From: a bacterium | GTDB lineage: Bacteria; CBDUZB01; JAGLHV01 | Length of the DNA: 14,585 nucleotides | Direction: 5' to 3' | Assembly (NCBI GenBank): GCA_023143305.1 | Contig: JAGLHV010000005.1 | Location: 1-14,585 of the forward strand | In this document: piece after piece, positions 1-14,585 of the stretch | Layout: each line of letters begins with the position of its first letter | Numbering within the stretch: position 1 is the first letter of the stretch | The notes under the pieces: model-generated | What the model was told of the DNA's origin: nothing | The model's input: the letters and a program-made list of their open reading frames with translations, nothing else | Databases searched by the model: none | Translations under genes and position numbers: made by a program

Positions 1-2498
1 GCACGCAATTCAGATAATTTCTGATTATACCTTGCACTACCAATACTATCTGCATGCCCTTCTACTTTAAGTTTATTCTCAGGATAAGATTCCAGTATTT
101 CTTTGGCTTTATTTAAAATTTTAAAAGCAGATTTTTTTAATACCGAACGATTAAGGTCAAAAAGAACACTTGCTTTTATGGTAACTTTCAATCCTTCTTT
201 TTCTTTGGTTATTTTAATCTCTTCAGGCATTTCTTTAGGAGAAATTTCTATTTTTAAGCAAACAAGAGGAGCGGTAACTTTATTACCTGCGTTATCTTCT
301 GCTTTAAAAAGTACACTGTATTCGCCTGCTGTAATCTCTTTTCCCGGAGAATCACTTTTCCCATTCCATTCAATACTCGGGGGAGGTGCTCCTGCTCGGG
401 TAAACAATTTTATTAAATAACCTTCATTATCCAAAATTTCCAACCGCCATTTTTTTATTCCTGATTCAGATGAAGCCATCAACCGGAAATAAGTAGTATC
501 ATTTATACCATCCCCGTCAGGAGAAAATAAAGGTGGCAGTGCTTCTACAAGAAGACGGGGGGGACTCTTATCCGGAGGGGGTGGCGGACTAATGAAAAGA
601 CCGAAACGCCAAATGCAAAACAATTTTATTTCATCAAAGCCTCCGATCATAGAGGTAATATATTTCCCGTCTATTTCTCTGGTTCCTAAATATTCCATTC
701 CTATTTCAAAATTTCCGACATTGCGGCTCAAAGAAGCTTTATATACCCGGTCAAAAGTCTGTCCAAAAGAGCGATGCCAATCCTCCGGACCCCATACACC
801 CTGTTGATAGGTAATTGAGGCCAAATAAGGTTTTTTGTTCAAACTTACCGTCGCACTAAGCAATCCGGTAATAGGTTTACATTCTTCCTGACTGGTAGTA
901 TAAGAATAAATTCCATCTGATAATTCTTCACCGGCTCTTAAACTAATGAGGAACTTATAATCCTGCGGTAAGTTAACTTTACTCAAAATAGTTACAAAAG
1001 AAAGCGGCCTTTTTGTTGCCCACCTACCATGGGTTGCACTGGGCTCCCACACTGTTTCACCTGAACTTTCAATATAAGTTTGCAAATCAGTAGTAGTAGG
1101 AAAATAAGAAAGAGAATAACCCAGGGCAAAAGCAAATTTTGCATTTTCTTCACGGTTTAAATTCCATTCCTGAAGAACATTGGGTTCCCATTGATAAAAC
1201 CAGCTGCCCGGAGTTGGGTCGTAAGTTAAAAATAAAGAATATATTGATGCTTCGCGATTAGCATTACTCACCCAAAAAGGTTCATCCTTACCCCGGGGAG
1301 TAGACCATATCGGACCGGGATTTTCGTCCGTTCCTTCATGCAAAAAGGGCATCGGCCCGATAAGAGGTTGACGATAAGTAAATATTCCTGTAGTATAAAA
1401 TAAAGAAGAAAGTTTTTTATCCAATTGCAGGGTAACTTCATTTTTATTTCCGGCCACTAATCCGGCATGAGTATATGTAATAGCACTTTCATCGATTAAA
1501 GGTGCACATTTTCTAGTATTTACCTTTATTTTTAAAGCAAGGGCATCTAAAAAATCGGTTTTTCCTTTTTTAATCAGATATTCGCTTCCAGCATACCCTG
1601 TACCGGCAGGAACTTCTTTTATATAGCTGTATTCTTCCCCTATCATAAAGGGTTTATAAAGCAACCCCACCTGAAAAGGAAAATTCCGGATAATATTTGT
1701 TTTTGTGCTTATTTCTCCTATCTTTAAAAAATCTTCTTTTTCACTCCAATCTATTTTTTCATTTTTAAGAATTAAAGCAGAATCAAAAAGGCCTACTTTA
1801 AAATTATACTTAGCTAAAGTAGCCTCTCCTCCGCCCCAGATCAAACGGGGACCGCTTACTACAGTAAGCTTATTTACTTTTCCTTTTATATTAATTTCCG
1901 CGCCCTGGGGAACAGCTATTCCGGTAATCCGGCGATAGTCATTGGGAATATAAGTCTCCGGATAAAGATTAAACATATCCCCTTCATAACCCCAATGATA
2001 ATGGCCGATACCGCTAAAATAACGTGCCGTAAATCTCTTTCCTCCTAAATACTTCAGCTCTCCCCTGACCAATTTTACATTCTGACGATCAAGATGCATT
2101 CTGTGCTCATCATTAACCGGCAGCCAAAAAGTATCAGCATAATTACCTATTGCTTCTATCCCTAATCCTCCCATTATTCTTTTAAAAGGATGAAATCCTA
2201 CATTTAAATTTAAAATCTGGCCTGTTGATTGTTCCCAGTCATGCTCTATTCCTGCATTATGATAATATGTATAGGATTTGCTTATTTCATCATCGGTTAT
2301 GACCCATTCGGGATCCGGCCTGTTCCATAATGATTCTAAACTTAAAGAAGATTCTATTTTTATACAGCGGTAAGGCAAAGGCTTATATACACAAATTACC
2401 GGAATCAACCCTCCTTCTTCTTTAGCAAAGGCAAAAATGAAATTAAGCACTATAAAAAATATTAAAAGCACACTTAACTTTTTTGTTTTCTTAAACAT
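1..2498 (-). CDS. Large outer-membrane beta-barrel protein with FlgD-like Ig and OmpA domains (3' end cut by window)
   Basis: The frame is open from the ATG at 2496-2498 to the window edge (832 codons visible), and the gene continues beyond it. Residues 1-25 form a signal peptide (Lys-rich start, hydrophobic core, AFA|K cleavage site). Residues about 45-635 alternate polar and aromatic/hydrophobic residues in short strands, as in a large outer-membrane barrel; I do not recognise the exact family. A Pro-rich linker (about 637-650) leads to a FlgD/gliding-type Ig domain opened by SPDGDGIND (about 658) and carrying an EWNGK strand and an AGEYSV strand. From about 771 comes an OmpA-like peptidoglycan-binding domain: VLFDLNRSVLKKSA, then VEGHADSIGSARYNQKLSELRA cut by the edge. 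It is probably anchored to the cell wall from the outer membrane. A weak SD (GAGAG) precedes the start. It is last in the glycan operon but has its own promoter. The OmpA and Ig calls are firm; the barrel function is unknown (porin, glycan uptake or scaffold). Confidence 0.85.
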   Translation of the reverse strand, partial: MFKKTKKLSVLLIFFIVLNFIFAFAKEEGGLIPVICVYKPLPYRCIKIESSLSLESLWNRPDPEWVITDDEISKSYTYYHNAGIEHDWEQSTGQILNLNVGFHPFKRIMGGLGIEAIGNYADTFWLPVNDEHRMHLDRQNVKLVRGELKYLGGKRFTARYFSGIGHYHWGYEGDMFNLYPETYIPNDYRRITGIAVPQGAEINIKGKVNKLTVVSGPRLIWGGGEATLAKYNFKVGLFDSALILKNEKIDWSEKEDFLKIGEISTKTNIIRNFPFQVGLLYKPFMIGEEYSYIKEVPAGTGYAGSEYLIKKGKTDFLDALALKIKVNTRKCAPLIDESAITYTHAGLVAGNKNEVTLQLDKKLSSLFYTTGIFTYRQPLIGPMPFLHEGTDENPGPIWSTPRGKDEPFWVSNANREASIYSLFLTYDPTPGSWFYQWEPNVLQEWNLNREENAKFAFALGYSLSYFPTTTDLQTYIESSGETVWEPSATHGRWATKRPLSFVTILSKVNLPQDYKFLISLRAGEELSDGIYSYTTSQEECKPITGLLSATVSLNKKPYLASITYQQGVWGPEDWHRSFGQTFDRVYKASLSRNVGNFEIGMEYLGTREIDGKYITSMIGGFDEIKLFCIWRFGLFISPPPPPDKSPPRLLVEALPPLFSPDGDGINDTTYFRLMASSESGIKKWRLEILDNEGYLIKLFTRAGAPPPSIEWNGKSDSPGKEITAGEYSVLFKAEDNAGNKVTAPLVCLKIEISPKEMPEEIKITKEKEGLKVTIKASVLFDLNRSVLKKSAFKILNKAKEILESYPENKLKVEGHADSIGSARYNQKLSELR

Positions 2499-2550
2499 AT
2501 CTATTCTCTCTTTTTTATTTTTGAATTAATTTACAAATTGTCTACTTAAT

Positions 2551-2579
2551 TTTATACTATTTTTATCGCTAATTGTAAA
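2551..2579 (-). promoter_or_regulatory. Predicted sigma70-type promoter for the OmpA-domain barrel gene
   Basis: Reading the minus strand, a -35 box TTTACA (2574-2579) is followed by a 17-nt spacer and a -10 box TATAAA (2551-2556). Transcription would start near 2544, giving a leader of about 46 nt before the ATG at 2498. It lies in the 97-nt gap after the PorV-like gene, so the barrel protein can be made independently of the enzymes upstream. The prediction rests on sequence match and spacing only, in an AT-rich background. Confidence 0.55.
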
Positions 2580-2595
2580 GACTTGTTTTTAAGGA

Positions 2596-3678
2596 TTAAA
2601 ATAATATGGCTAAAGAAAAACGATGCGTGTCTTTTAATTTAGGACGAAAAACAAAAGCATAATCTATTTTAAAATGCCCTTGCTTCAAAGAAGCTCCTGC
2701 TGAAAAATCATCCAAAAAAGAAATCCTTAAACCATATATTTCATGTAACCAGCATTCTATTCCCTGAAAAAACTTTAAAGAATCTGTTTCGTCCGGAATA
2801 TAATCAAACTCAAAAGCGATATTTAGTTTTATGTCTATCGATTCGTTTTCTTCTTTTCGTAAAGAATTTTTATTTCGTTCTAAGGCTTGAGGATTTTGAG
2901 AAATTCTTGGCTCGTAAATACTATATTCTCCCCCATGCACTTCTTCTTTAAAAAAACTAACCAGGGAAGAAAAAGCTTTCTTTGCTTTTAACACTACTCC
3001 GGAACGAATATGGCAGGGAATTACTTCTTTTACCTGCCTATCACTCCAATAAGAAGTTCCTTTGATTTGGGTCTTTCCTATATTTTGAATATTTACTCCC
3101 CATGTCAAAAAACCTTCTCCGCCCAACAACATTCCCAGATCCATTCCCCATCCCTCACTGGAAAAGGTATCGATATTCTGGGTTATTCTTTTACCGCTAA
3201 TTCCTAAATACAAAGGTAAAGAGGATACAGGCTGAATACTGCCGGAAACAAAAAAAGCATCATTAACCATCCGGGTCTCTCCCAGGGATTCTTCCTGGTT
3301 TGTCTTTTCTATATTTAAGCTTCTCAACTGTAACCATCCTACACCCAGAGCAATCCTGCTTTTTTCTTTTTTGCAGGCAAAAACAGGCTGAGCATAGCTC
3401 ATAAAGCTATATGTAGTGTCGGTAAACAAAGAACCGTAAGTTCCGCTAAATTCCCTGTTTTTTAGTAAACCCAATCCGGCCGGATTCCAATAAACCGCAC
3501 TGGAGTCATCAACTAAAGCCGTAAAAGCACCTCCCATTCCCATAGATCTTGCTTCTACTCCGACAAGCAAAAAGCTTGCCGGTTCCCCCGCAGCAAAACA
3601 AACATCCGGAAATTGAGTTGCCGGAATGAAAAACAAACCAATACAAACTAAAAATAATAATTTTGTATGTATCTTCAT
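2596..3678 (-). CDS. PorV/PorQ-like (UPF0164-type) outer-membrane beta-barrel protein
   Basis: A 360-residue secreted protein. Residues 1-30 are a signal peptide (hydrophobic core, CFAA|GEPA). The mature N-terminus carries the family hallmark at residues 38-70: GVEARSMGMGGAFTALVDDS followed by AVYWNPAGL, the G-A-R-x-x-x-MGGA...DD...WNPAGL pattern of PorV/PorQ and UPF0164 proteins, which are FadL-like outer-membrane barrels. The rest alternates as beta strands and ends in HRFSLAILF, a terminal aromatic signal of the kind BamA recognises. Family members include the type IX secretion shuttle PorV, but most homologues outside Bacteroidota have no known role. The start overlaps the stop of the upstream glycosidase by ATGA (3675-3678), so translation is coupled; no clear SD is seen. 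Next to an enzyme with a sorting-like tail, a role in surface delivery is plausible but inferred. Confidence 0.82.
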   Translation of the reverse strand: MKIHTKLLFLVCIGLFFIPATQFPDVCFAAGEPASFLLVGVEARSMGMGGAFTALVDDSSAVYWNPAGLGLLKNREFSGTYGSLFTDTTYSFMSYAQPVFACKKEKSRIALGVGWLQLRSLNIEKTNQEESLGETRMVNDAFFVSGSIQPVSSLPLYLGISGKRITQNIDTFSSEGWGMDLGMLLGGEGFLTWGVNIQNIGKTQIKGTSYWSDRQVKEVIPCHIRSGVVLKAKKAFSSLVSFFKEEVHGGEYSIYEPRISQNPQALERNKNSLRKEENESIDIKLNIAFEFDYIPDETDSLKFFQGIECWLHEIYGLRISFLDDFSAGASLKQGHFKIDYAFVFRPKLKDTHRFSLAILF

Positions 3679-5132
3679 TTTAATACCATAATCCGCCGAT
3701 ATTTTACCTCGGTAAGATTTTCATTTTTTGCTTTAGCTTTTATCCGGCAAATATACACCCCATTGGCTACTACATGGTTATTCTTATCCCGTCCGTCCCA
3801 GTATATCTGATAATTAATTTCACTATATAATCCATTCCAATATATCCGTGATATAACATCTTCTTCTATCTCCGACCAGGAACAAACTAATTTACCGGCA
3901 ATATCATATATTTCAACTTTTATATCGGCTATTCGATTTAAAGTGAATTCAATTCTTGTTTTGTTTTGATAAGGATTAAACGGATTAGCGTAATTTTTTA
4001 CTGCACTTATAAATAAAGGAACCTCTTCCAGATAATCTTCTCCTGTCCAATGTTTTCTTAATGCATAGTAAGCTTTCTTCGGTATTTTCTGGTAACTGTT
4101 AGTTAAAAGACTGACTACCCCGCACCATTCATCATTCCAGTTTTCAAGCCCGGGGGCAGAATCATAAATATTATCAAGAGAACCTCTTCCCTCTGTGTTA
4201 TGTACCCAATCCGGAGTTCCGTTTTGATCCCGGGACCAGTCATCGGCCCACATATGTAATGTTCCCCCGATACACACTCTATTACTATTAAAAGCAGAAA
4301 GATTATGTTTTATGTGTGTCCAGAGATTAGATAAAACTTCCGCATGGGCACCCTGGTTTTCCTGAAGTTTTATTGAATCCCAACTATCACATCCGTACTC
4401 GGTAATACAAAGCGGTTTTTCACTTTTTCCTTTATATTCCGTAAACAAGTCATAAAACGAATTACCTCTATAAACCTGCACCGACCAGACATCCAGATAA
4501 GGCATATTAGCATCGTCAGCTAACTCAGCGGCATCCCCTATATTAAATATTTCCCAGTTACCTGTAGTTACCGGATGAAAATTATCTCCCTCCAGCTCAT
4601 GGCTGGCCTGAGCACATTCATTAACCAAACTGTACCAATCTTTAACATCTTCTTCATGATTCCAGGGGGCATTTTGCTCGTTTCCCAGACACCACATTAA
4701 TATTGCCGGATGGTCTTTCCAGTCATTCACCATATTTAAAAAATCCGCTTTTACCTCATCCCTTACTGACTGCACACTAAAGTCTGCTTTAGCAACCTTC
4801 CAGGTCATAATCACATATATTCCATTTTCATAAGCAGCATCCAGGGCAGCTACTTCCGAAGGCGGATCATAAATTCTTATGGTATTACCGCCCATTGCCT
4901 TAATTAAAGGAAAATCAATATTGTATAAATCAGGGTCCTTGCTCCAGTCATAAAGAGGATACCAACCTTCTCCCACCGGCGTAGATCCAAAACAAACACC
5001 CCTTACAGTAAAAGGCACACTATCTACTAAAAGTTGCCGGCCTTCCACCTTTACTTCCGTAGATTTACTTGCGGACGGAAAACTAAAACAAATGGCAAAC
5101 GACACAATAATTGCAACAAGTACCTTTTTCAT
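3675..5132 (-). CDS. Secreted clan GH-A glycoside hydrolase with C-terminal FlgD/T9SS-like domain
   Basis: 485 residues. Residues 1-24 look like a signal peptide. Residues about 28-365 form a (beta/alpha)8 barrel of clan GH-A: RGVCFGSTPVG (44-54) at strand 1, a DFPLIKAMGGNTIRIYD segment (73-89), the acid/base N151-E152 in LMWCLGNEQN, and the nucleophile E245 in CITEYG. Residues about 375-485 resemble the FlgD-type Ig / T9SS type-A tail: NYANPFNP (380-387), VEIYDIAGKLV, YWDGRDKNN, VANGVYICRI, ending RRIMVLK. The enzyme should cleave or transfer beta-linked sugars outside the cytoplasm; the GH family (GH2_C-, GH5- or GH72-like) and substrate cannot be named from sequence alone. It lacks the N-terminal helical domain and the calcium-loop insert of its two neighbours. 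The start overlaps the previous stop by ATGA and has a GGGGAAG SD inside the upstream gene's end. Confidence 0.85.
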   Translation of the reverse strand: MKKVLVAIIVSFAICFSFPSASKSTEVKVEGRQLLVDSVPFTVRGVCFGSTPVGEGWYPLYDWSKDPDLYNIDFPLIKAMGGNTIRIYDPPSEVAALDAAYENGIYVIMTWKVAKADFSVQSVRDEVKADFLNMVNDWKDHPAILMWCLGNEQNAPWNHEEDVKDWYSLVNECAQASHELEGDNFHPVTTGNWEIFNIGDAAELADDANMPYLDVWSVQVYRGNSFYDLFTEYKGKSEKPLCITEYGCDSWDSIKLQENQGAHAEVLSNLWTHIKHNLSAFNSNRVCIGGTLHMWADDWSRDQNGTPDWVHNTEGRGSLDNIYDSAPGLENWNDEWCGVVSLLTNSYQKIPKKAYYALRKHWTGEDYLEEVPLFISAVKNYANPFNPYQNKTRIEFTLNRIADIKVEIYDIAGKLVCSWSEIEEDVISRIYWNGLYSEINYQIYWDGRDKNNHVVANGVYICRIKAKAKNENLTEVKYRRIMVLK

Positions 5133-7261
5133 TCTTCCCCTTTTTTACTCTTGAGGAGTTTAAAAACAAGTAATACCTGGACCCCCAACAAAGGGAAAAT
5201 TATTACTTTTGCTTTCTGAGGTAAAAAGGGGGAATTATTTTTGACCTTTTTCGTTTTTTCATTATCAATAAACTTCCCCTGCTCGGTATTCCCGGTAATA
5301 TTCTCAATAATTTTATTTTCCAATTTTAAATTAATATTTTGCTCTGATTTGTTCAGTTTTTTTTCATTTTCATTTGCTGAATATTTCTCTATCTTTTTAT
5401 TCCATATTTCCTTATGTACATAATAAGCTTTTCGTAACTGACGCAGGTAAGGACTCTTCTCCCCATCTCCCTGACTGGTAATACCAAACCATTCCGAATG
5501 CCCCCAACCATCAGGAAAAGGACCGCTCGACCGGGAAGCAGTATCATGCACTTTAGGGTCATAACCGTTTCCACTTAACCACCATTCATCAATCCATTCG
5601 TAAAGTATTCCCCCCATGGCATTTCCTGCTTCACTACCGGCTAAATTAAGCACAATATCCTGCCAGCATCCAACTAGATATTCCGCTTGTTTTTTCTCTG
5701 CAAATTTTTGTTTTTTCCCTTCATAATAAGCCGGACAACCATATTCAGTAATTAATACCGGCTTATCACATATTTTCTTGACTTTTTCCCATAAACCGCC
5801 AAAACCCCGGCTTCCCCGGTAGGCATTACAACCAAAAATGTCCACTGCCGGACAATGAGCAGCAAAAAGTTCCAAATCACCTTCATCTCCCATACAAACT
5901 GCTACCGGATGTTCCGGATCCAGACGATGAATTAATTCCGCTGCCTGGTTAATAAATTGATAATAAGCCGTTGGATTTTCTTTATAATTGTTTCCTACAC
6001 CATAATTATTTTCGTTTCCTAAAACCCAAAGCAAAAGGTACGGCTCATCTTTAAATTCCAAAACCTTTTTTTCCAGATTATAAAGAATATCCGTACGTTG
6101 TTCCGCATTAGTATAATCGGTAAAACCTCTCCCGGAGCCTGTCCCATACATCCCCATAAAATCGCCCATAAGACACATTATACCAAAATCTTTATACAAT
6201 TTTCGCAATAATTTTTTGCTTCCGGCACTATGATAAATGCGGATAGTATTACATCCCATTTCTTTTAATAATTGAAAATCACCTATTACCGGTTCATCTG
6301 CATCCTGTTTGTTGTTTTTGTTTTTATCTACCCATGAATCATAAGGACCATCAATCTTTCCGTTTTTATTATAATCCATCAATGTCCAATCTTCCTGTGT
6401 CCCCAATTCCGCACTCTGCCCTACAGGAGTACATCCATAAGTTATACCTTTAATAATATACGGTTTGCCTTTTACTCTCAATTGATAATGCCCATTAGTA
6501 AATCTTGTCACTTCTACTTTTTTTACTTTCTTTTTTTCTTTTTCTTTTACTTCTATTAATCTTCCATTCTCAAGTTCTTCTTTCTTTCTTTGCTGTTTTG
6601 TATATTTTACCAACTTTCCCGGATTAACCGTAACAATATCATTGTCCAAATCCGTATCATCAAAACTTTTTATCTTAATCTCGGCTTCTATTAATTTTAA
6701 TTCCAATTCAGGATGATTTTTACAAATATTATTGATGGAATCCAGGGCTACCGGAGCTAAATACCAAACAAAGGTTTTCTCCTGCGCCCAGGAAGCAGAA
6801 CGGGGAAAATGTACTACCAGAGCATAATAAGCTTTTATTGCCTGTTTATAAAGACCTGCTTTTTCTAAATTCTGGGCAACATAAAAAAGTTTAACCGCGG
6901 GACTTTCAGGGGCTGTTGCCCACTTATAAAAATTCGCCTGAGCATTACTTCCTAAAAAACTCCACCGACTACCGTCCAATTTCCCTTCGGAGAGAAACTT
7001 TTGGTACTCAGGGTCCTGTCTAACAGTTTTGTCATTAGGATAAATTCCTTCGCCTACGGCCCGGGATAATCCTTTTCTATCTTCAATGACATACTTATAC
7101 TTATCAGTTTTTATTCCCTCAAAAGTTCCGTATTGAGAATAATCAACTATCCCTTCTGTCCCCGAATCAAACAATTTAAATCCTGTTTTTGCCCCGGAAA
7201 TAGAAACTATATATAAACAAAAAATAATTACCCCACCTGTTTTTTTTAATAATCCCTTCAT
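5129..7261 (-). CDS. Clan GH-A glycoside hydrolase with helical N-domain, EF-hand-like insert and C-terminal membrane anchor
   Basis: 710 residues. A basic-hydrophobic N-terminus (1-24) is a signal peptide or anchor. Residues about 30-215 are a mostly helical, TPR-like domain (KLFYVAQNLEKAGLYKQAIKAYY, about 124-146) shared with the next gene upstream. A Lys/Glu-rich linker (about 220-250) leads to a GH-A TIM barrel (about 258-620) with acid/base N416-E417 in LWVLGNENN and nucleophile E506 in LITEYG. Two calcium-loop motifs interrupt the first barrel unit: D296-x-N298-x-N300-G301-x-I303 and D312-x-N314-x-N316...D320-x-D322-E323. After the barrel comes a Lys/Asn/Glu-rich stretch (about 620-684), then a hydrophobic segment (about 686-703) and a basic tail KSKKGEE, a likely membrane anchor. 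A good SD (AGAGGA) lies 6 nt before the ATG. It is second in the operon; substrate unknown. Confidence 0.85.
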   Translation of the reverse strand: MKGLLKKTGGVIIFCLYIVSISGAKTGFKLFDSGTEGIVDYSQYGTFEGIKTDKYKYVIEDRKGLSRAVGEGIYPNDKTVRQDPEYQKFLSEGKLDGSRWSFLGSNAQANFYKWATAPESPAVKLFYVAQNLEKAGLYKQAIKAYYALVVHFPRSASWAQEKTFVWYLAPVALDSINNICKNHPELELKLIEAEIKIKSFDDTDLDNDIVTVNPGKLVKYTKQQRKKEELENGRLIEVKEKEKKKVKKVEVTRFTNGHYQLRVKGKPYIIKGITYGCTPVGQSAELGTQEDWTLMDYNKNGKIDGPYDSWVDKNKNNKQDADEPVIGDFQLLKEMGCNTIRIYHSAGSKKLLRKLYKDFGIMCLMGDFMGMYGTGSGRGFTDYTNAEQRTDILYNLEKKVLEFKDEPYLLLWVLGNENNYGVGNNYKENPTAYYQFINQAAELIHRLDPEHPVAVCMGDEGDLELFAAHCPAVDIFGCNAYRGSRGFGGLWEKVKKICDKPVLITEYGCPAYYEGKKQKFAEKKQAEYLVGCWQDIVLNLAGSEAGNAMGGILYEWIDEWWLSGNGYDPKVHDTASRSSGPFPDGWGHSEWFGITSQGDGEKSPYLRQLRKAYYVHKEIWNKKIEKYSANENEKKLNKSEQNINLKLENKIIENITGNTEQGKFIDNEKTKKVKNNSPFLPQKAKVIIFPLLGVQVLLVFKLLKSKKGEE

Positions 7262-7333
7262 TTTTCCTCTTTTTATAATTACTGCAAAAATAAATTTAAC
7301 GGCTTTCCCCTTTTGGGTAAAAAAATCCCCGCA

Positions 7334-7378
7334 TTTATCAATTATTGACTATCCGTAATAACATCGTAAATTGATAAA
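7334..7378 (-). repeat. 10-bp perfect inverted repeat between the two large glycosidase genes
   Basis: Arms TTTATCAATT (7334-7343) and AATTGATAAA (7369-7378) are exact inverted complements around a 25-nt loop, placed just after the stop of the 627-aa gene in the 124-nt gap. On the minus strand a run of seven T follows, but about eight G-rich bases separate it from the stem, so it is not a standard terminator. It could be a 3'-end stabiliser, processing site or weak attenuator. A smaller TTT-CCC/GGG-AAA hairpin with one mismatch follows. Confidence 0.5.
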
Positions 7379-7385
7379 CCGCCCC

Positions 7386-9269
7386 TTATTTTTTGTCATT
7401 CCATAAATCTTTATAAGTATAATAAGCCTGACGGAGTTGACGCAAGAAAGGACTTTTGCTTCCATCCCCCTGGCTACAAATTCCCAACCATTCATCCAGA
7501 GAACAAGGTTCATCAAAATTTTTGTCCATTCCTCCCCATATATCCTGTTCATCAGGAGAAAACTCACTGGAATGTCCTGCTTTCCACCATTCGTCTAACC
7601 ACTGGTAAACTATTCCTCCCAAAGAGTTGCCTGCCCCACTACCGCCCCGGTTGTAGGTTATGTCTTCCCAGCAACCGTAGTGATAATCTGCCTGTTTCTT
7701 TTCGGAAAACTCCTTGCTTTTTTTATGTTTATAAGAATAAATCCCGTATTCAGTTATAAAAACAGGCCGGTCACAACTCTCCTTTATTTCGTTCCATAAT
7801 CCCCCAAAACCTTTATCTCCCCGATAAGCATTACATCCGAATATATCCACATCCGGACAATACTTAACAAAATAACTCAAATATCCCAGGTCTCCATTAC
7901 AAATTGCTACAGGATGGTCGGGATCAAGCTGGTGAATTATTTTAGCTACTTCATTGACAAATTTATAATATACAGCGGGATCTTTCTGACAATTATTAGC
8001 TACTCCGTAATTATTTTCGTTTCCCAAAACCCAGAAAAGAACATAGGGTTCATCCTTGAATTCCATAACCATCTTTTTTACCCCTTCAATCATCTTTGCC
8101 CGCTGTTGGGGATTACTATAATCCGTCCCCACCTCCCAACTTGCTCCGGACCCCACACTGTACATACCTAAAAAATCTCCCATTATGGACATAATCCCAT
8201 AATTTTCATAAAGTTCCCGCAGCAATTCTTTATTAGCTGCAGAATGATAATTTCTTATAGTATTACACCCCATTTCTTTTAACAATTGAAAATCTCCTAC
8301 CACCGGTTCATCCGCATCCTGTTTGTTATTACCGTTTTTATCTACCCATGAATCATAGGGCCCATCTATTTTCCCATTTTTATTATAATCACAAAGCATC
8401 CAATCAGCTAAATCCAAATTATCCGGACTCTGGCCAATTTTAGTTGCTCCATAAGCCATTCCCTTTATTATATAGGGTTTCCCTTCCACCAACAACTGCC
8501 AATGACCATTTTTATACTTCACCAGCTGTACTTTTTTCCCACCTATACTCTTAACAATTTTTGACTTTTTAAGCTTAACCTTTTTGGGTACTATGTTTTT
8601 AGGTTTACATTTAACTATTTTTCCCGGATTAGTAATAATTATATCATTCTCGGTATCACGATCATCAAAACTATTTACTTTAATCTTAGCTCCTACTAAT
8701 TTCATCCCTAATTCCGGATGATTACGACAAAGCCAGTTAATTCCGTCTATGGCTGCCGGCCCTAAATATATCGGTGTCTGCCACATAAGTGTCCATGTTA
8801 CAGTTTTAGGATAATGAACTATTATAGCATAATAAGCTTTTATCGCGTGTACATAATGACCTGCTTTCTGTAAAGCAAAAGCAGTATAAAAAAGTTTTAC
8901 TCCTGCTGCTTCTGAAGCAGTAGCCCATTTAAAAAAATCAAGCTGGGTATCATCTCTATCAATAAACTTCCAATGTGAACCTTCTAACCTGCCTTTATGT
9001 TTTGCTTCCTGGTATTCCATATTTTTTATTATACTATTACTCGGATGAATTCCTTCTCCTATAGCTGCAGCTAATCCTTTTCTATCGGTAATTTTATATT
9101 TATAATCCGGCGTCCCAACTTTCTCAAATTCTCCATATTTCTCATAATCAACGATCCTTTCTTTCCCCGGGTCTAATAAAGTAAATAGTTCTTTGCCTAG
9201 AATATTTACCCGTAAAGAAAAAATAAACATTATTAACCCCGCCATTGCTAGTGCTCTACTCTTTTTCAC
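7386..9269 (-). CDS. Clan GH-A glycoside hydrolase with helical N-domain and EF-hand-like insert
   Basis: 627 residues, the first gene of the operon. The start is GTG (9267-9269), chosen because a strong SD (GAGGGGG) sits just upstream and the encoded N-terminus is a signal peptide (basic MKKSRA, hydrophobic to about residue 24). Residues about 30-220 are the helical TPR-like domain, a basic linker follows (222-246), then the GH-A barrel (about 255-622): acid/base N417-E418 in FWVLGNENN, nucleophile E507 in FITEYG. Calcium-type loops lie at D294-x-N296-x-N298-G299-x-I301 and D310-x-N312-x-N314...D318-x-D320-E321. It is colinear with the 710-aa protein and about 44 of 46 residues match across the insert region, so the two arose by duplication. 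Unlike its partner it stops right after the barrel (LWNDKK) with no anchor, so it is probably soluble in periplasm or medium. Substrate unknown. Confidence 0.85.
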   Translation of the reverse strand: MKKSRALAMAGLIMFIFSLRVNILGKELFTLLDPGKERIVDYEKYGEFEKVGTPDYKYKITDRKGLAAAIGEGIHPSNSIIKNMEYQEAKHKGRLEGSHWKFIDRDDTQLDFFKWATASEAAGVKLFYTAFALQKAGHYVHAIKAYYAIIVHYPKTVTWTLMWQTPIYLGPAAIDGINWLCRNHPELGMKLVGAKIKVNSFDDRDTENDIIITNPGKIVKCKPKNIVPKKVKLKKSKIVKSIGGKKVQLVKYKNGHWQLLVEGKPYIIKGMAYGATKIGQSPDNLDLADWMLCDYNKNGKIDGPYDSWVDKNGNNKQDADEPVVGDFQLLKEMGCNTIRNYHSAANKELLRELYENYGIMSIMGDFLGMYSVGSGASWEVGTDYSNPQQRAKMIEGVKKMVMEFKDEPYVLFWVLGNENNYGVANNCQKDPAVYYKFVNEVAKIIHQLDPDHPVAICNGDLGYLSYFVKYCPDVDIFGCNAYRGDKGFGGLWNEIKESCDRPVFITEYGIYSYKHKKSKEFSEKKQADYHYGCWEDITYNRGGSGAGNSLGGIVYQWLDEWWKAGHSSEFSPDEQDIWGGMDKNFDEPCSLDEWLGICSQGDGSKSPFLRQLRQAYYTYKDLWNDKK

Positions 9270-9326
9270 TTTTACCCCCTCTGTTTTTGTTTGTAAGATT
9301 TTTTATATTATAATATTTGTAGTTCT

Positions 9327-9355
9327 TTTATACCATAAAAACACCTAAAAGTCAA
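9327..9355 (-). promoter_or_regulatory. Predicted sigma70-type promoter of the glycoside hydrolase operon
   Basis: On the minus strand a -35 box TTGACT (9350-9355) is followed by exactly 17 nt and a -10 box TATAAA (9327-9332). The start would be near 9320, leaving about 50 nt of leader before the GTG of the first glycosidase. It lies downstream of a probable terminator of the transporter gene, which supports a separate operon. Based on sequence match only. Confidence 0.6.
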
Positions 9356-9369
9356 CATATCATTCTTAG

Positions 9370-9389
9370 TTATAAGACATTCCTTATAA
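9370..9389. promoter_or_regulatory. Inverted repeat upstream of the glycosidase operon promoter (possible regulator site)
   Basis: TTATAAG (9370-9376) and CTTATAA (9383-9389) are perfect inverted arms around 6 nt. The centre lies about 60 bp upstream of the predicted start, the spacing used by class I activators. No regulator gene is in the window, and a short AT-rich palindrome can arise by chance. Confidence 0.3.
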
Positions 9390-9403
9390 TTATTTAGTCC
9401 AAC

Positions 9404-9440
9404 AAAAAAACCTCTTTATCAACCAAATTTCAAAGAAAGG
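9404..9440 (-). terminator. Probable intrinsic terminator after the ArsB/NhaD permease gene
   Basis: Just past the permease stop, minus-strand CCTTTCTTT (9432-9440) can pair with AAAGAGG (9411-9417) with one bulge and one G-U pair, and is followed directly by seven T (9404-9410). The stem is weak, but its place between a stop codon and the next promoter fits a terminator. Confidence 0.45.
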
Positions 9441-9443
9441 AGT

Positions 9444-10715
9444 CTAGTCTACCCACAACCACCAATTAAATAAGGCAGCTGAAGTAACCGCTGCTAAAGT
9501 AAAAGGTAACCCTACTTTAACAAAATCCCAGAAAGAAATAAAATGACCGTTCTTTTTTAACAAACCTACTGAAACAATATTAGCTGAGGCTCCGATAGGA
9601 GTAATGTTGCCCCCCAAACTTGCGCCGATTAAAAGCCCAAAGAAGAAAAGAGGGGAAGAAAATCCACCCCGAAGGGTAATGGTTTGAACTACAGGCAACA
9701 TTGCCACCAGAAAAGGTATGTTATCAATAAAAGCAGACATAAAAACCGAAAAAGTAATTAAAACTATATATGCCAATCCCTGATTTGACCCAACCAATTT
9801 AGAAAATTTATCAGCAAAAACAGACATCCATCCCGCTTCTATTAAAACCCCTACTAAAATAAAAACAGTCATCAGGAAAAACATAGTTTGCCAATCAAGT
9901 TCTTTCAAGGAAACAAAGAGTGTCTTTTTCTTGTTTTTTATCAGCCAGAACAAGGCCAGGAAACCACCTGCCATACAAATAGTTCCGTTAAGATATTCAA
10001 AATTAAAACGAACAAAGGAAGTAACGGCAAGGATAATAATTACTCCCATCAGAATTATTGCAGGAACCAAACTTTCTACTTTTTCTTTTCTCACCAGAGA
10101 AACTTCCTGTTTTTCCTTGCGGAAGAACAAATAAAGAACAACTAAAGAAATACAGGCACCGATTTGCACGGCAAAAAATATTCCCACTTTTCCCTGATAA
10201 AAAAAGAAATCGCTAAAGGTTAAGTTCATAAAGCTGGCCAAAAGCATACTGGGAGGATCTCCGGTAAGGGTTGCCGCTCCCTGCAGATTAGAAGATACCG
10301 CCAGAGCAATTAAGAAAATAGTTGGGTTCATTTTAATTCTTTTAGATAAAGCCAGAGCAATGGGAGCAACTACCAGAAAAGTAGATACATTTTCCACAAA
10401 GGCAGAAATAAACCCGGTAAGAAAACAAATTGCCAATATCCCCCATACTGCTTTCTTTAATTTATAAAGGATCCATTCGGCTAAATAAGCAGGAACATTA
10501 GAAAGCATAAAGGCATCGGCTACAAAAAACATGCCAATTAAAATGCCCATTATATTCCAATTAATAAAAGTTAACGCTTTGATTAAATGAATCTGTCCGA
10601 AAAAAAACATAGCAATTGTTCCCAAGGCACCACAAAGCATTCTTCTGGCAGGAAAAATCATAAAAAGAAAATATGAAAGAACAAAAATAAATAAGATTAT
10701 ATTTCGTGTATCCAT
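9444..10715 (-). CDS. ArsB/NhaD-type (ion transporter superfamily) inner-membrane permease
   Basis: 423 residues, almost wholly hydrophobic, about 11-12 membrane segments; length is normal for the family. The two-fold pseudo-repeat is visible: ENVSTFLVVAPI (108-119) and SNLQGAATLTGDPPSMLLA (142-160) in the first half, DNIPFLVAMLPV (331-342) and GASLGGNITPIGASANIVSV (364-383) in the second. These are the EN/DN helices and re-entrant loops of the ArsB/NhaD and citrate-transporter-like permeases. A polar Lys/Glu-rich loop (about 200-215) separates the halves. Substrates in this superfamily include arsenite, sodium/proton and dicarboxylates, and the sequence does not decide. No ars genes are nearby, so arsenic export is not assumed. 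The ATG at 10713-10715 has no SD and lies about 5 nt from the predicted transcript start, so translation may be leaderless; M19 is the main alternative start but would cut the first membrane helix. Confidence 0.85.
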   Translation of the reverse strand: MDTRNIILFIFVLSYFLFMIFPARRMLCGALGTIAMFFFGQIHLIKALTFINWNIMGILIGMFFVADAFMLSNVPAYLAEWILYKLKKAVWGILAICFLTGFISAFVENVSTFLVVAPIALALSKRIKMNPTIFLIALAVSSNLQGAATLTGDPPSMLLASFMNLTFSDFFFYQGKVGIFFAVQIGACISLVVLYLFFRKEKQEVSLVRKEKVESLVPAIILMGVIIILAVTSFVRFNFEYLNGTICMAGGFLALFWLIKNKKKTLFVSLKELDWQTMFFLMTVFILVGVLIEAGWMSVFADKFSKLVGSNQGLAYIVLITFSVFMSAFIDNIPFLVAMLPVVQTITLRGGFSSPLFFFGLLIGASLGGNITPIGASANIVSVGLLKKNGHFISFWDFVKVGLPFTLAAVTSAALFNWWLWVD

Positions 10716-10755
10716 AATGGTAAAATATTATACATTTTACCATTAAATTTTGCAA
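10716..10755 (-). promoter_or_regulatory. Promoter with palindromic operator overlapping its -10 box, upstream of the permease
   Basis: Perfect inverted arms AATGGTAAAAT (10716-10726) and ATTTTACCATT (10734-10744) flank 7 nt. On the minus strand those 7 nt contain TATAAT (10727-10732), with a -35-like TTGCAA (10750-10755) at a 17-nt spacing. A dimeric regulator bound here would block RNA polymerase, so repression is the likely mode. The palindrome ends at the ATG. I cannot assign the regulator family. Confidence 0.6.
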
Positions 10756-10851
10756 TAGCAAATATGTTAAAAAAAACAGTCCTTACCCCATAAATTTTGA
10801 GTGTTTATCAGATACGTAACAATAAAAAATATTGTATTACTAATTTTTTAC

Positions 10852-10880
10852 TTGAAAATTTTAGAGATTTACTATATTAT
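10852..10880 (+). promoter_or_regulatory. Predicted sigma70-type promoter of gyrA
   Basis: TTGAAA (10852-10857), a 17-nt spacer and TATTAT (10875-10880) form a good plus-strand match. Transcription would begin near 10887, about 200 nt before the gyrA ATG, so the repeat element at 10911-11063 would be part of the leader. Other sites inside the repeat cannot be excluded. Confidence 0.5.
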
Positions 10881-10910
10881 AGAGACGTTTATTGCTGACT
10901 ACTAATAAAT

Positions 10911-11063
10911 AGACTTCTGCAAAATAGCTTTTTATCTTTTTTGTCATTCCTGCGAAAGCAGGAATCTGTTGATATTTAAAAACATTATAAATTCCGCATC
11001 ATCCTTCGCCTCAGGCGGATTAGGCGAAGAGGAATGACAGAATATTATCTTTTGCAGAACTCT
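10911..11063. repeat. MITE-like element with inverted ends and internal palindromes, upstream of gyrA
   Basis: The ends AGACTTCTGCAAAA (10911-10924) and TTTTGCAGAACTCT (11050-11063) are inverted complements with one mismatch in 14. Inside, TGTCATTCCT (10942-10951) is matched by AGGAATGACA (11030-11039), a second exact 10-bp inverted pair. Two local hairpins are present: ATTCCTGC-GAAA-GCAGGAAT (10946-10965, GNRA-type loop) and CTTCGCCT/AGGCGAAG (11004-11011 with 11022-11029). The GTCATTCCTGCGAAAGCAGGAAT core resembles dispersed palindromes common in many bacterial genomes. There is no ORF, so it would be non-autonomous. No clear target-site duplication is visible. The rest of the 374-bp gap between the permease and gyrA holds the two promoters above and nothing else I recognise. 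Confidence 0.65.
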
Positions 11064-11089
11064 TACTACATAAAATTAAAGGAGATTCC

Positions 11090-13534
11090 ATGACTGACAC
11101 AACAAAAGAAAATATCGGGAAAGTTATTCCCTGTACTATTGAAGATGAAATGAAAAAATCTTACATTGATTATGCAATGAGCGTAATCATCGGCAGAGCA
11201 TTACCGGATGTCCGGGATGGATTAAAACCGGTTCATCGGCGTATTTTATTTGCCATGAAAGAAATGGGTTTATCTCATAATAGGCCTTATAAAAAATCCG
11301 CTGCTGTAGTCGGAGATGTATTAGGAAAATATCATCCCCACGGTGATACTGCTGTTTATGATACAATGGTTCGGTTGGTACAAAAATTTTCTATGCGCCA
11401 CCCTTTAATTGACGGACAGGGTAACTTTGGTTCTATAGACGGAGATTCTGCCGCAGCATACCGTTATACTGAAGCACGCTTAACAGAATTAGCCGCTGAA
11501 TTATTATCCGATATTGACAAAGAAACGGTAGATTTCACTCCTAATTTTGATAATACCCGGCAGGAACCGGTAGTTCTTCCCAGCGCCTTTCCTAATCTTT
11601 TAGTAAATGGGTCTTCGGGTATTGCCGTAGGAATGGCCACAAACATACCGCCTCATAATTTAGGGGAAATAATAGATGGTTTATTCGCTCTCATTGACAA
11701 TCCGGATATTGAAATTAAAGAACTAAATAAAATAATCAAAGGACCTGATTTTCCTGCCGGGGGTATAATTCACGGGAAAAACGGCATAAAAGAAGCTTAT
11801 CTTAACGGAAGAGGGTCAATAAAACTCCGTGCTAAGGTAGATATCGAAGAAAATAGCCAGGGAAAAGAAACTATTATCGTTAAAGAAATTCCCTATCAAG
11901 TCAACAAATCCTCCCTGGTAGAAACCATTGCCAAATTAGTAAGGGATAAAAAAATTGAGGGAATTTCTGATTTAAGGGATGAATCGGATAGAAAAGGAAC
12001 CCGGGTAGTAATTGAATTAAAGAGAGAAGCACATTCTCAAATCGTTCTTAACCAATTATTTAAGCATACTCAATTAGAAACTTCTTTTGGAATAATTATG
12101 TTATCGCTGGTAAACAACCGCCCTAAAGTGCTTAATCTAAAAGAAATGCTGTATTATTATCTCCAACATCGTCAGGAAATGGTTGTCCGGCGCACTCAGT
12201 TTGAACTGAAAAAAGCAGAAGCCCGGGCACATATTTTAGAAGGATTACAAATTGCTTTAGACAACTTAGATGAAATAGTTAAAATTATTCGAGCCTCTAA
12301 CAATGTAGAAGCAGCAAAAACGGCCTTAATGGAAAAGTTCCCTTTAAGTAAACTCCAGACGGAAGCTATATTAAATATGAGATTACATCAACTAACCGGC
12401 TTAGAAAGAGAAAAAATTCAACGGGAATATTTGGAATTGATTAAAATAATAGAAAAATTTAAATTCATTTTATCCAGCCCGCAAAAGGTATTATCTATTG
12501 TTAAAGAAGAATTATCCGCTATAAAAGAAAAATATCAAAACAAAAGAAGAACATCTATCGTAGCCAAATCAATAGAAATGGATATTGAAGATTTAATTCA
12601 GGAAGAAGAAACAGTCATTACCATATCTCACGCCGGATATGTAAAAAGGCTGTCCCTTTCTGTCTATCGCGCTCAACACCGGGGAGGAAAAGGGTTAATC
12701 GGAACAACCCTTCGGGATGAAGATTTTGTAGAGAATATTTTTATTACTTCTACTCACAGTTATCTGCTTTTCTTTACCACTTTTGGACGGGTTTATTGGC
12801 TGAAAGTTTATGAAATCCCGGAAGGAAGCAGACAATCTAAAGGAAAAGCCATTATTAACCTTATTTCCCTTTCCTCCAATGAAGAAAAAATCGCTGCGGC
12901 TATCCCGGTGAAGGAATTTAATCTTGATACTTTTTTAATAATGGTCACACAAAACGGGACTTTGAAAAAAACAGCTTTAACCGAATATAGTAATCCCAGA
13001 AAAAAGGGTATCATTGCTATAAACTTTAAAACAGGGGATTCTTTGATTGATGCAAAACTTAGTACCGGGACAAATTACATAATTATCGGAACTAAAAAAG
13101 GAATGGCAATAAAATTCAAAGATCAGGAAGTAAAAGCTATTGGAAGAACCGGAAAAGGTGTTCGCGGAATAAAATTAAATAAAGGAGACGTGGTTATTGG
13201 AATGGAAACAATGTCCGAAGACGACACCCTTTTAAGTGTCACTTCCAACGGCTATGGAAAGCGCACCAGGATAAAAGAATATCGTCTTGTCTCCCGTGCT
13301 TGTAAAGGCGTAATTAATATCAAAACCACAGCAAAAAACGGAGAAGTGATTGGTATAAAGCGGGTAAATAAAGAAGACGAAATAATGCTGATCACCGCAA
13401 AAGGTATAGTAATTCGGGAAAAAATTAAAAACATCCGCACCATCGGACGAAGCACACAAGGAGTAAAATTAATCAGATTAGAAAAAGACGATCGTCTGGT
13501 AGGTCTGGCTAAAATAATTCCTCAGGGAAGTTAG
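11090..13534 (+). CDS. gyrA: DNA gyrase subunit A
   Basis: 814 residues; the breakage-reunion subunit of DNA gyrase, which with GyrB introduces negative supercoils using ATP. The N-terminal WHD/tower part (about 15-490) has the catalytic tyrosine Y126 in [11 protein letters not shown] and the quinolone-region motif [10 protein letters not shown] (82-91), with Thr87 and Asp91 at the positions of E. coli Ser83 and Asp87. The C-terminal beta-pinwheel starts near 500 and has a GyrA box QHRGGKG (529-535; canonical QRRGGKG), which marks GyrA rather than ParC. It is shorter than the 875-residue E. coli protein, mainly at the C-terminus, as in many bacteria. A strong SD (AAAGGAGA, 11078-11085) fixes the start. 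gyrB is not in the window. Archease follows after 40 nt and is probably co-transcribed. Confidence 0.96.
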
Positions 13535-13574
13535 ATTTATAAAAATTACTAAGATAATATTCCAACAGCTAAAA

Positions 13575-14003
13575 ATGAAAAAATTAGAATGGATTAACCA
13601 CCCTGCAGATTTAGGATTTAAAGTTTACGGAAAGAATGTAAAAGACTTATTTAATAATGCAGCCTGGGGAATGCTTAATATTTTAACCGACTTAGATAAA
13701 ATAACTCCCCGGGTGACAATAAAAATAGAACTAAAAGCCGCTAATCTGGAAGAACTGCTCATAATCTGGTTAAACGAATTACTTTATTACTATAATACCC
13801 AACAAATCATTTTCAACAAATTTAAATTGCTAAAAATTAATGAAAGTTATCTTTGTGCCACTGTTCAAGGAGAAAAAATTAATCCTTCTAAGCATCAAAT
13901 AAATATAGAAATAAAAGCAGCCACCTACCACCAATTAAAAATTAATTATTTTCCTAAATATAAAACTTACCCCTGGCAAGTACAAATAATCTTTGATGTA
14001 TAA
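13575..14003 (+). CDS. Archease family protein
   Basis: 142 residues, the usual archease length. Family marks: WINHPADLGFKVYG (6-19) with D12, LEELLIIWLNELLYYYNT (58-75), GEKINPSKHQINIEIKAATYHQL (about 99-121), and a C-terminal IIFDV with D141. D12 and D141 match the acidic metal-site residues of archaeal archeases. Known archeases speed guanylylation and turnover of the RNA ligase RtcB, and some act as chaperones for RNA-modifying enzymes. No rtcB is visible here. The gene lies 40 nt after gyrA with no promoter or terminator between, so it likely rides on the gyrA transcript. No good SD precedes the ATG; the start is chosen because the first residues align with the family N-terminus. Confidence 0.9.
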   Translation: MKKLEWINHPADLGFKVYGKNVKDLFNNAAWGMLNILTDLDKITPRVTIKIELKAANLEELLIIWLNELLYYYNTQQIIFNKFKLLKINESYLCATVQGEKINPSKHQINIEIKAATYHQLKINYFPKYKTYPWQVQIIFDV

Positions 14004-14036
14004 AAATACAGGCAAATCCTAAATCCCCGCCTTATC

Positions 14037-14094
14037 TCCTCCAGAGGCGAAGTGGACCCGCCTTACGGACTGGCGGACAGGCAGGCAAATTCCA
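14037..14094. repeat. GC-rich palindromic repeat fragment
   Basis: A GC-rich patch in AT-rich DNA between convergent genes. It holds CCTC-CA-GAGG and a CCGCC (14058-14062) / GGCGG (14072-14076) stem around 9 nt. It shares the AGGCGAAG word with the MITE-like element upstream of gyrA. It looks like a dispersed intergenic repeat; its edges are uncertain. Confidence 0.4.
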
Positions 14095-14145
14095 AATTCG
14101 AAACTCAACCTTTTAAACAAAAATAAACGACAGGGTAAAATACAA

Positions 14146-14209
14146 GGGGTCAGGCATTGAACGTTGAATAGCTTATATTCAAATTTCAAGGTCTGACCCC
14201 AATTTTTTT
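14146..14209 (+). terminator. 55-nt symmetric hairpin plus T-tract: terminator and/or REP/RAYT-type repeat
   Basis: GGGGTCAG (14146-14153) pairs with CTGACCCC (14193-14200), TTGAA (14157-14161) with TTCAA (14185-14189), and TTGAATA (14164-14170) with TATTCAA (14176-14182). The internal loops are symmetric (3 by 3 and 2 by 2) and the apical loop is 5 nt, 20 pairs in all. Seven T follow at 14203-14209. It can end the gyrA-archease transcript and sits before the end of the convergent PilZ gene. The GGGGTCAG...CTGACCCC ends recall dispersed REP-like palindromes associated with Y1 (IS200-like) transposases in many genomes. Confidence 0.65.
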
Positions 14210-14232
14210 ATCAAAGGATAAAGCAGAGGTTT

Positions 14233-14585
14233 TTATTTTTTCCTTTTTTTCAAATGTCCTTTTATGGTTTGAGAACAAAGCGCATAATAAGAACACTTTT
14301 TAAAACAAATATTTTTCTCACCGTTAAGATGTCTCATTTTACAATGGTGAAAATCTTTAGCCATTTGATTAATTTTATCTTTCACCGCTTCACTCAATTT
14401 AGTAAAACCGATACCAACAGTATATGTCCCTGTTTTTTCTTCTACTCTAACTATTTTTCCTACTACTTTTTTGATTTTTAATCCGGGAATATTTATGCTT
14501 AATTCCAGTAAAGATTTTTCCGGTAAAGGAATAAAAGTAATTACTACCACCCCTCCGGCACTCAAATCCATCATAATCCCCGGAA
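14233..14585 (-). CDS. PilZ-domain protein with Cys-containing C-terminal tail (5' end cut by window)
   Basis: The frame stays open through the right edge, so the gene enters from outside and the ATG at 14572-14574 is probably internal. Counting from that Met, the visible part has the PilZ motif DLSAGG (3-8; family pattern D/N-x-S-x-x-G), strands about 10-60 with VVGKIVRVEE and YTVGIGFTKLS, and a helix EAVKDKINQMAKDF. The upstream RxxxR that completes cyclic-di-GMP binding lies outside the window. A basic tail follows with four cysteines (78, 90, 94, 100: C-x11-C-x3-C-x5-C) and His 76, 77 and 82, ending KKRKK. PilZ proteins bind cyclic-di-GMP or act as adaptors in motility and surface traits. 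The tail could bind a metal, but that is inference. Confidence 0.8.
   Translation of the reverse strand, partial: PGIMMDLSAGGVVVITFIPLPEKSLLELSINIPGLKIKKVVGKIVRVEEKTGTYTVGIGFTKLSEAVKDKINQMAKDFHHCKMRHLNGEKNICFKKCSYYALCSQTIKGHLKKRKK

Follow-up and report, generated by a model that had tools for sequence, protein, structure and literature searches.

Why would a bacterium line up three related glycoside hydrolases and provide each of them with a different C-terminal end? The question is raised by a DNA stretch of 14,585 bp (the window; positions 1-14585 of one contig) from a 1.76-Mb draft genome that is 94.7% complete. A first-pass annotation had described three paralogous clan GH-A enzymes of 627, 710 and 485 residues in one operon, and had proposed that they process one glycan at three places: soluble, membrane-bound and surface-displayed. 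In our best reading, to which we assign a probability of about 0.53, the operon encodes secreted beta-glucanases, a PorV-family protein and an OmpA-anchored outer-membrane protein (OMP), which together would acquire a beta-1,3-type glucan.

The locus

Three clan GH-A reading frames are indeed found on the minus strand where they had been placed; the ORF list and Pfam agree (Table 1). Along this strand the order is CitMHS/DASS transporter, 627-aa, 710-aa and 485-aa enzyme, PorV-family protein, OMP; the gyrA and archease genes of the window run on the opposite strand. The 710 and 485 genes overlap by 4 bp, and so do the 485 and PorV genes. The gaps are 124 bp between 627 and 710, 97 bp between PorV and OMP, 174 bp between the transporter and 627.

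Table 1. Features of the locus, with positions in the window
Feature	Position	Strand	Remarks
627-aa enzyme	7386..9269	-	GTG start; signal-peptide-like start, helical N-terminal domain, GH-A barrel, C-terminal extension absent
627-aa enzyme, GH-A barrel	7395..8534	-	about residues 246-625
710-aa enzyme	5129..7261	-	domains as in the 627-aa enzyme, plus linker and hydrophobic tail
710-aa enzyme, GH-A barrel	5378..6529	-	residues 245-628
710-aa enzyme, two EF-hand-like loops, Asp/Asn-rich, within the barrel	6293..6376	-	residues 296-323; from sequence
710-aa enzyme, hydrophobic segment of the tail, followed by a basic end	5156..5206	-	residues 686-702
485-aa enzyme	3675..5132	-	signal-peptide-like start, GH-A barrel, sorting-type C-terminal domain
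485-aa enzyme, GH-A barrel	4035..5069	-	residues 22-366
485-aa enzyme, T9SS type-A-like C-terminal domain with NPFNP	3678..3995	-	residues 380-485; TIGR04183, strand-rich in the model
PorV/PorQ-family gene	2596..3678	-	NF033709, 100.4 bits (cut-off 90)
Outer-membrane protein (OMP) gene, cut by the contig end	3..2498	-	homology to the C-terminal half of GH-OMP fusions
CitMHS/DASS-type transporter gene, upstream	9444..10715	-	same place in the same-genus genome G001

The arrangement is kept within the genus. In G001 a contig of 13.8 kb reads transporter-627-714-489-PorV-OMP, and its only ORF besides these window orthologues is a 218-aa gene without Pfam match; the orthologue of the 627-aa enzyme is 87% identical. 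The full-length OMP relative in G001 has 919 residues with CHU_C and OmpA domains. A third genome of the genus, G002, shows the end of the 710 gene, then 485, PorV, OMP and more. From spacing and the common order in G001, the three enzymes probably form one operon, as had been claimed, and the PorV-family and CHU_C/OmpA OMP genes extend it beyond the enzymes. With its gap of 174 bp, the transporter is an uncertain member. An Rfam scan of the window returned nothing at gathering score. A promoter scan found 34 candidates versus a mean of 35.6 in shuffled sequences, so no promoter is claimed.

Catalytic barrels and their kinship

All three enzymes open with a hydrophobic, signal-peptide-like segment; a lipobox, judged by eye, is seen in none of them. 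The catalytic glutamates are intact, precisely as annotated: E418/E507 (627), E417/E506 (710) and E152/E245 (485), in the contexts LGNE and ITEYG. The pair of the 710-aa enzyme is invariant across the 44 sequences of the 627/710-type alignment, that of the 485-aa enzyme across the 31 sequences of the 485-type alignment. EF-hand-like loops occur also in the 627-aa enzyme and are absent from the 485-aa enzyme; the two patterns recur in 40 and 39 of the 44 aligned proteins, and the loops of the 627 and 710 enzymes may bind calcium.

Their kinship is of two degrees. The 627- and 710-aa enzymes are 56% identical, near neighbours in the tree and paralogues as annotated; the 485-aa enzyme belongs to a separate deep clade, in which the genus proteins of this type group with 485-type relatives with good support, at a long distance from 627/710. 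In this tree, built from 69 barrels picked by hand out of all matches, 627 and 710 form separate genus pairs. The 710 type groups with P0002, a protein named for an Elusimicrobia bacterium (support 98/94); the separation of 627 and 710 therefore seems to predate the genus. One branch of two rows (G001_C129, G002_C79) has a great length and an unreliable position.

Family affiliation

The nearest solved structures are those of GH158 and GH157, with GH2 enzymes close behind. By profile, GH158 is the best PDB match for both alignments, with E-values of 3.2e-24 (485) and 1.3e-18 (627/710), the match spanning only about 140-225 residues. Predicted structure models were used for the 485- and 710-aa proteins. 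In Foldseek, GH158 is the top match of the 485 model, and the first ten matches of the 710 model are all GH157 or GH158. VIA-align, the rows of which cover mainly the barrels and hardly the N-terminal domain of 627/710, gives the top Z to GH157, 30.9 for the 485 and 28.1 for the 710 model; LaGH157 superimposes with an rmsd of 2.6 and 2.8 over 299 and 307 residues at 17-20% identity. The identity to GH158 in the structure alignment is 24-26%. In the profile search with the 485 family, GH157 comes fourth, with GH158 and two GH2 enzymes ahead of it; it does not appear among the 60 matches listed for the 627/710 family. GH2 and GH157 are significant matches too.

Each of the two families thus has its likeness and its difference. 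With GH158 (BuGH158, GH158(Pro)) the window enzymes share the GH-A barrel, the catalytic residues and the top profile match; the match is partial, however, and the accessory domains are others. The catalytic set is an Asn-Glu acid/base and a Glu nucleophile, as described for BuGH158 in the available text of its report (PMC7157763). LaGH157 has the highest VIA-align Z, but low identity and a weaker profile rank. Both families are presented as endo-beta-1,3-glucanases in the portions at hand of PMC7157763 and PMC10229575.

Could the enzymes instead be exo-acting glycosidases of the GH2 kind, a glucuronidase or a galactosidase? Glyco_hydro_2_C is above its cut-off in all three and is the best Pfam domain match. 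GH2 beta-glucuronidases follow GH157 closely in VIA-align, tied with or above GH158, and one of them takes second place in the profile ranking of the 485 family. GH2 enzymes are defined by an N-terminal sugar-binding jelly roll and an Ig-like domain ahead of the barrel. A GH2 structure is described with two extra N-terminal domains in the available text of PMC7157763. These N-terminal domains find no Pfam match in the three enzymes and are missing from the 485 and 710 models; the 485 barrel begins near residue 22, and the N-terminal domain of 710 is mostly helical. GH2 membership was rejected because the N-terminal GH2 domains are absent; the barrel model is the sole one of the GH2 set to match. 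GH158 also comes first by profile for both families, and we regard a GH2-type activity as very improbable. Within our best reading, the enzymes would belong to a clan GH-A family that is still uncharacterised and lies near GH157 and GH158; they may be members of either of these or of a new family.

Three different ends

The ends differ as annotated, and the 627-aa enzyme terminates directly after the barrel. The tail of the 710-aa enzyme comprises about 80 residues and holds a 17-residue segment with a mean Kyte-Doolittle value of 2.41, versus 1.91 for its own signal peptide; when the mature protein was shuffled 2000 times, 17 of the shuffles reached 2.41. Burial of the tail in the fold had been named as the result that would speak against a membrane segment. 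In the model, the linker (residues 659-693) has a pLDDT below 50 and the helix at 691-704 one of about 51; given the very low confidence ahead of the tail, the model shows no sign of burial. An operon order conserved nowhere had been named as a second such result, and G001 keeps the order.

The end of the 485-aa enzyme is of another kind. FlgD_ig, CHU_C and Por_Secre_tail each remain below the Pfam cut-off, TIGR04183 reaches a borderline 23.7 bits (cut-off 23), the NPFNP motif is present, and the C-terminal domain is strand-rich in the predicted model.

Among listed homologues, the three "addresses" are unequally conserved. An NPF-type motif within the last 130 residues occurs in 33 of the 120 listed 485-type homologues (233 found), the window's own included. 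A membrane tail like that of 710 is present in only 2 of the 120 listed 627/710-type homologues (2925 found), the window protein and a relative of the same genus, and is therefore not a general address of the family.

The three ends might then be nothing but drift after duplication, with all enzymes working in the same place, an explanation compatible with any substrate. The restriction of the 710 tail to the genus, among the listed matches, fits this, and so do the N-termini: a lipobox-like pattern marks 13 of the 44 aligned relatives and 20 of the 120 that are listed for the 627 type, which means that anchoring changes often. Yet the hydrophobic tail is kept in all three genus genomes (G001 and G002 included) while the linker ahead of it has diverged, and within the 485 clade the sorting motif is found repeatedly. 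On balance we consider drift unlikely, though a serious contender.

Possible export to the cell surface

A T9SS-like route for the 485-aa enzyme is plausible; the evidence is incomplete. The SprA_N domain (PF14349) is above its cut-off, as a partial profile match, in 3/3 genus genomes and in 0/14 controls. A C25 peptidase was found in one of the three, as an open-ended 380-aa piece that matches no NCBIfam model. GldM was detected in none of the three genus genomes, which are drafts from a distant phylum; the Flavobacterium control G067 was positive. The 485-aa enzyme thus resembles a type IX cargo in its sorting-type C-terminal domain, its PorV-family partner and the SprA-like protein of the genus; it differs in that GldM went undetected and that the sole candidate for PorU is the C25 piece in one of three genomes.

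What became of the three addresses? A surface address of the 485-aa enzyme finds support in the overlapping PorV-family gene, in the trio of PorV, GH and OMP genes seen in relatives and in the SprA-like protein. Against the scheme count the genus-only tail of 710, the borderline sorting domain and the undetected GldM. Staged processing would be reasonable for the 485-aa enzyme; for the 710-aa enzyme it rests on a genus-specific tail.

Neighbourhoods and fusions

Genome contigs searched with the 485 alignment yielded at least 80 loci. The trio PorV-GH485-OMP is present in four of five genomes examined of the small phylum to which locus L028 belongs; in L134 the locus ends within the PorV frame. 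Further genes of L028 encode an ABC solute-binding protein and, upstream, a TonB-dependent receptor. The Elusimicrobia relative L033 reads GH-PorV-OMP. Many of the Omnitrophota loci encode a protein of a 382-aa type, with a 627-type enzyme on one side and another, shorter barrel on the other. Among the 80 loci listed, the 382-aa type occurs in 29, a solute-binding protein in 21, two permease-like genes in 22 and a ROK-like gene in 21, the permease and ROK assignments being our reading of the sequences. The scanned window proteins include no SusC/SusD, and none was recognised on the G001 contig of 13.8 kb.

In 29 of the 80 listed loci, one protein contains both the barrel and a region homologous to the OMP of the window. 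(Four of the 80 lack a barrel by the ORF caller and the blastp cut-off; they were kept in the denominator.) The fusions measure 1015-1153 residues in 27 cases, and 736 and 774 in two that meet locus ends. Searching with the G001 OMP (residues 60-680) gave 168 homologues; of the 120 listed, 82 carry a barrel, at median residues 23-413 in the fused proteins, and 38 do not. The 34 best-scoring are all barrel-free, which makes the fusion a trait of a more distant group. In the tree sample, fused proteins come from Bacteroidota, Gemmatimonadota and a record named Comamonas. The strand alternation of the OMP is not significant (121 of 500 shuffles equal it), that of the C-terminal part of the fusion in L070 is reached by 34 of 500, and a GH barrel used as control scored 0, which all 500 shuffles reach.

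The wider point of interest is this pairing of enzyme and OMP, split here and fused elsewhere. A four-term literature query found no paper on such a fusion, which is weak evidence of its absence in print. It is tempting to regard barrel and OMP as a SusCD-free unit that feeds its product into its own OMP. The two would be one protein in Bacteroidota and several further phyla, whereas here the enzyme would have become a separate gene, triplicated and separately addressed; the barrel would also be the unclassified GH0 of marine laminarin loci, and a new GH family. We offer this wide claim tentatively and think it more probably wrong than right.

Substrate

A beta-glucan is favoured for the window enzymes, beta-1,3 first, and the company of the relatives points there. 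By blastp at 1e-10, the 29 fusion loci (of 80 listed) contain GH16 in 23, GH149 in 17 and GH3 in 6 cases. The GH149 of L074 matches the solved GH149 beta-1,3-oligosaccharide phosphorylase 6hq6 with 1716 bits. GH149 is single-copy in 13 of the 16 genomes searched, and each of these copies is placed within a fusion locus or straddles its edge; since 14 of the 17 loci chosen for this sample were chosen for showing GH149, this is a copy-number result and not a frequency. A GH161 relative adjoins the barrel in L033.

Published loci tell a similar story. According to the available text of PMC10108472, expressed marine laminarin loci have the composition GH149-GH0-GH16_3, and in one genome GH0 ranks among the 10% most highly expressed; that of PMC13188888 describes Muricauda laminarin loci with a GH2 next to GH16 and GH149. 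Our Muricauda locus L092 contains the fusion, GH149 and GH16. From this locus and the shared gene content, as far as the accessible descriptions go, we infer that the GH0 and GH2 of the published loci are the fused family. Their likeness to the window would be the homologous barrel, there in Flavobacteriaceae beside GH149 and GH16; the difference is that the barrel is fused to the OMP there, while the window has separate genes and three enzymes. The beta(1,3)-glucan locus of B. uniformis, as described in the available text of PMC7157763, is similar in that a surface GH-A endo-glucanase feeds an outer-membrane importer; it differs by its SusC/SusD pair, seen in neither the window nor the G001 contig.

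The genus itself provides the counter-argument to beta-1,3: it has GH94, and neither GH149 nor GH161 was detected in its three genomes. Positive controls, for GH161 in a repeat with the same outcome, make these absences firmer. The substrate could thus be another beta-glucan, mixed-linkage or cellulose-derived, cut by beta-1,4- or beta-1,3/1,4-glucanases that feed a GH94 of the cellobiose type. Each genome has one GH94, nearest to cellobiose phosphorylases and the sole such phosphorylase found; in G001 and G002 its neighbours are a GH35 gene and a barrel paralogue of shorter length, and in the remaining genome, G000, it is split over two contigs. GH94 also occurs in four Omnitrophota loci, and crystals of GH158(Pro) were, by the structure title, soaked with a mixed-linkage oligosaccharide. 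However, fused relatives adjoin GH149 and GH16, one Elusimicrobia relative adjoins GH161, and laminaribiose phosphorylase 6ggy is also among the GH94 matches, if a weaker one, so that the family does not fix the linkage. We judge another beta-glucan to be unlikely, a little more so than drift of the three ends.

Alternatively, the enzymes might not be catabolic at all and act on the glycan of the cell's own envelope, remodelling it by transglycosylation or trimming, like the fungal GH72 glucanosyltransferases. Glyco_hydro_72 is above its cut-off in the 485-aa enzyme, GAS2 is among the profile matches, and an OmpA-type cell-wall anchor is adjacent. No glycan-synthase gene, however, was recognised among the ORFs scanned in the window and the 13.8-kb G001 contig, and the Omnitrophota relatives with their solute-binding protein and two genes read as permease-like point to uptake. 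Envelope remodelling appears improbable.

A possible pathway and its meaning

Acquisition of a beta-1,3-type glucan by the operon, our best reading, would proceed as follows. The 485-aa enzyme, displayed outside by a T9SS-like route, would make the first cuts. The oligosaccharides would cross the outer membrane at or near the OMP. They would be shortened by the 627-aa enzyme in the periplasm and by the 710-aa enzyme, anchored through its tail, probably to the inner membrane. The single GH94 of the genome would finally phosphorolyse them in the cytoplasm. Directly observed are the domain make-up, the conserved catalytic glutamates, the gene order of the genus and the homologous barrel-OMP fusions in other phyla; a beta-1,3-glucan as substrate we infer from the relatives.

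The breakdown of laminarin is a large carbon flux. If the marine GH0 is this barrel family, the fusion with an OMP offers a testable idea of how GH0 acts. The window presents the same two parts, barrel and OMP, as separate genes in an uncultured lineage, and it is a compact case of one enzyme family with different ends within one operon.

Additional features of the loci

The barrels of the subfamily to which the 627-aa and 710-aa enzymes belong contain two inserted EF-hand-like Asp/Asn loops, the patterns of which recur in 40 and 39, respectively, of 44 aligned proteins. All three genomes of the genus encode another 627-type enzyme, preceded by a gene for a protein of 267-286 aa, whose C-terminus looks zinc-finger-like by eye. 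A second locus of the genus has consecutive genes for a GH94 enzyme, a barrel paralogue of 434 aa and a beta-galactosidase of family GH35.

Beyond the outer-membrane protein gene, small lipoprotein-like genes of the genus end in the motif YVDDIRY or YLDDVRF; a Pfam scan of them yielded no family. Relatives are also present at L028, an Elusimicrobia locus with the PorV-GH-OMP trio, and at L029, and a 222-aa representative of the genus is akin to a 382-aa protein of Omnitrophota. At L028, a few genes separate the trio from a TonB-dependent receptor gene on its upstream side, which is adjoined by a chemoreceptor gene.

Immediately 5' of the start codon of the window's transporter gene, there is an inverted repeat, AATGGTAAAAT ... 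ATTTTACCATT, which may be an operator.

Coordinates of the features
Feature	Location
EF-hand-like loops	window 6293-6376; corresponding part of 627-aa gene
267-286-aa gene, then 627-type enzyme	L113:7286-10126; L114:6563-9364; L003
GH94/434-aa paralogue/GH35	L115:5537-12256; L116:5245-11961; divided between L110 and L111
Small lipoprotein-like genes	L108:12680-13336; L109:5911-6570 and 7345-8013
TonB-dependent receptor	L028:2110-4284
Inverted repeat	window 10716-10745
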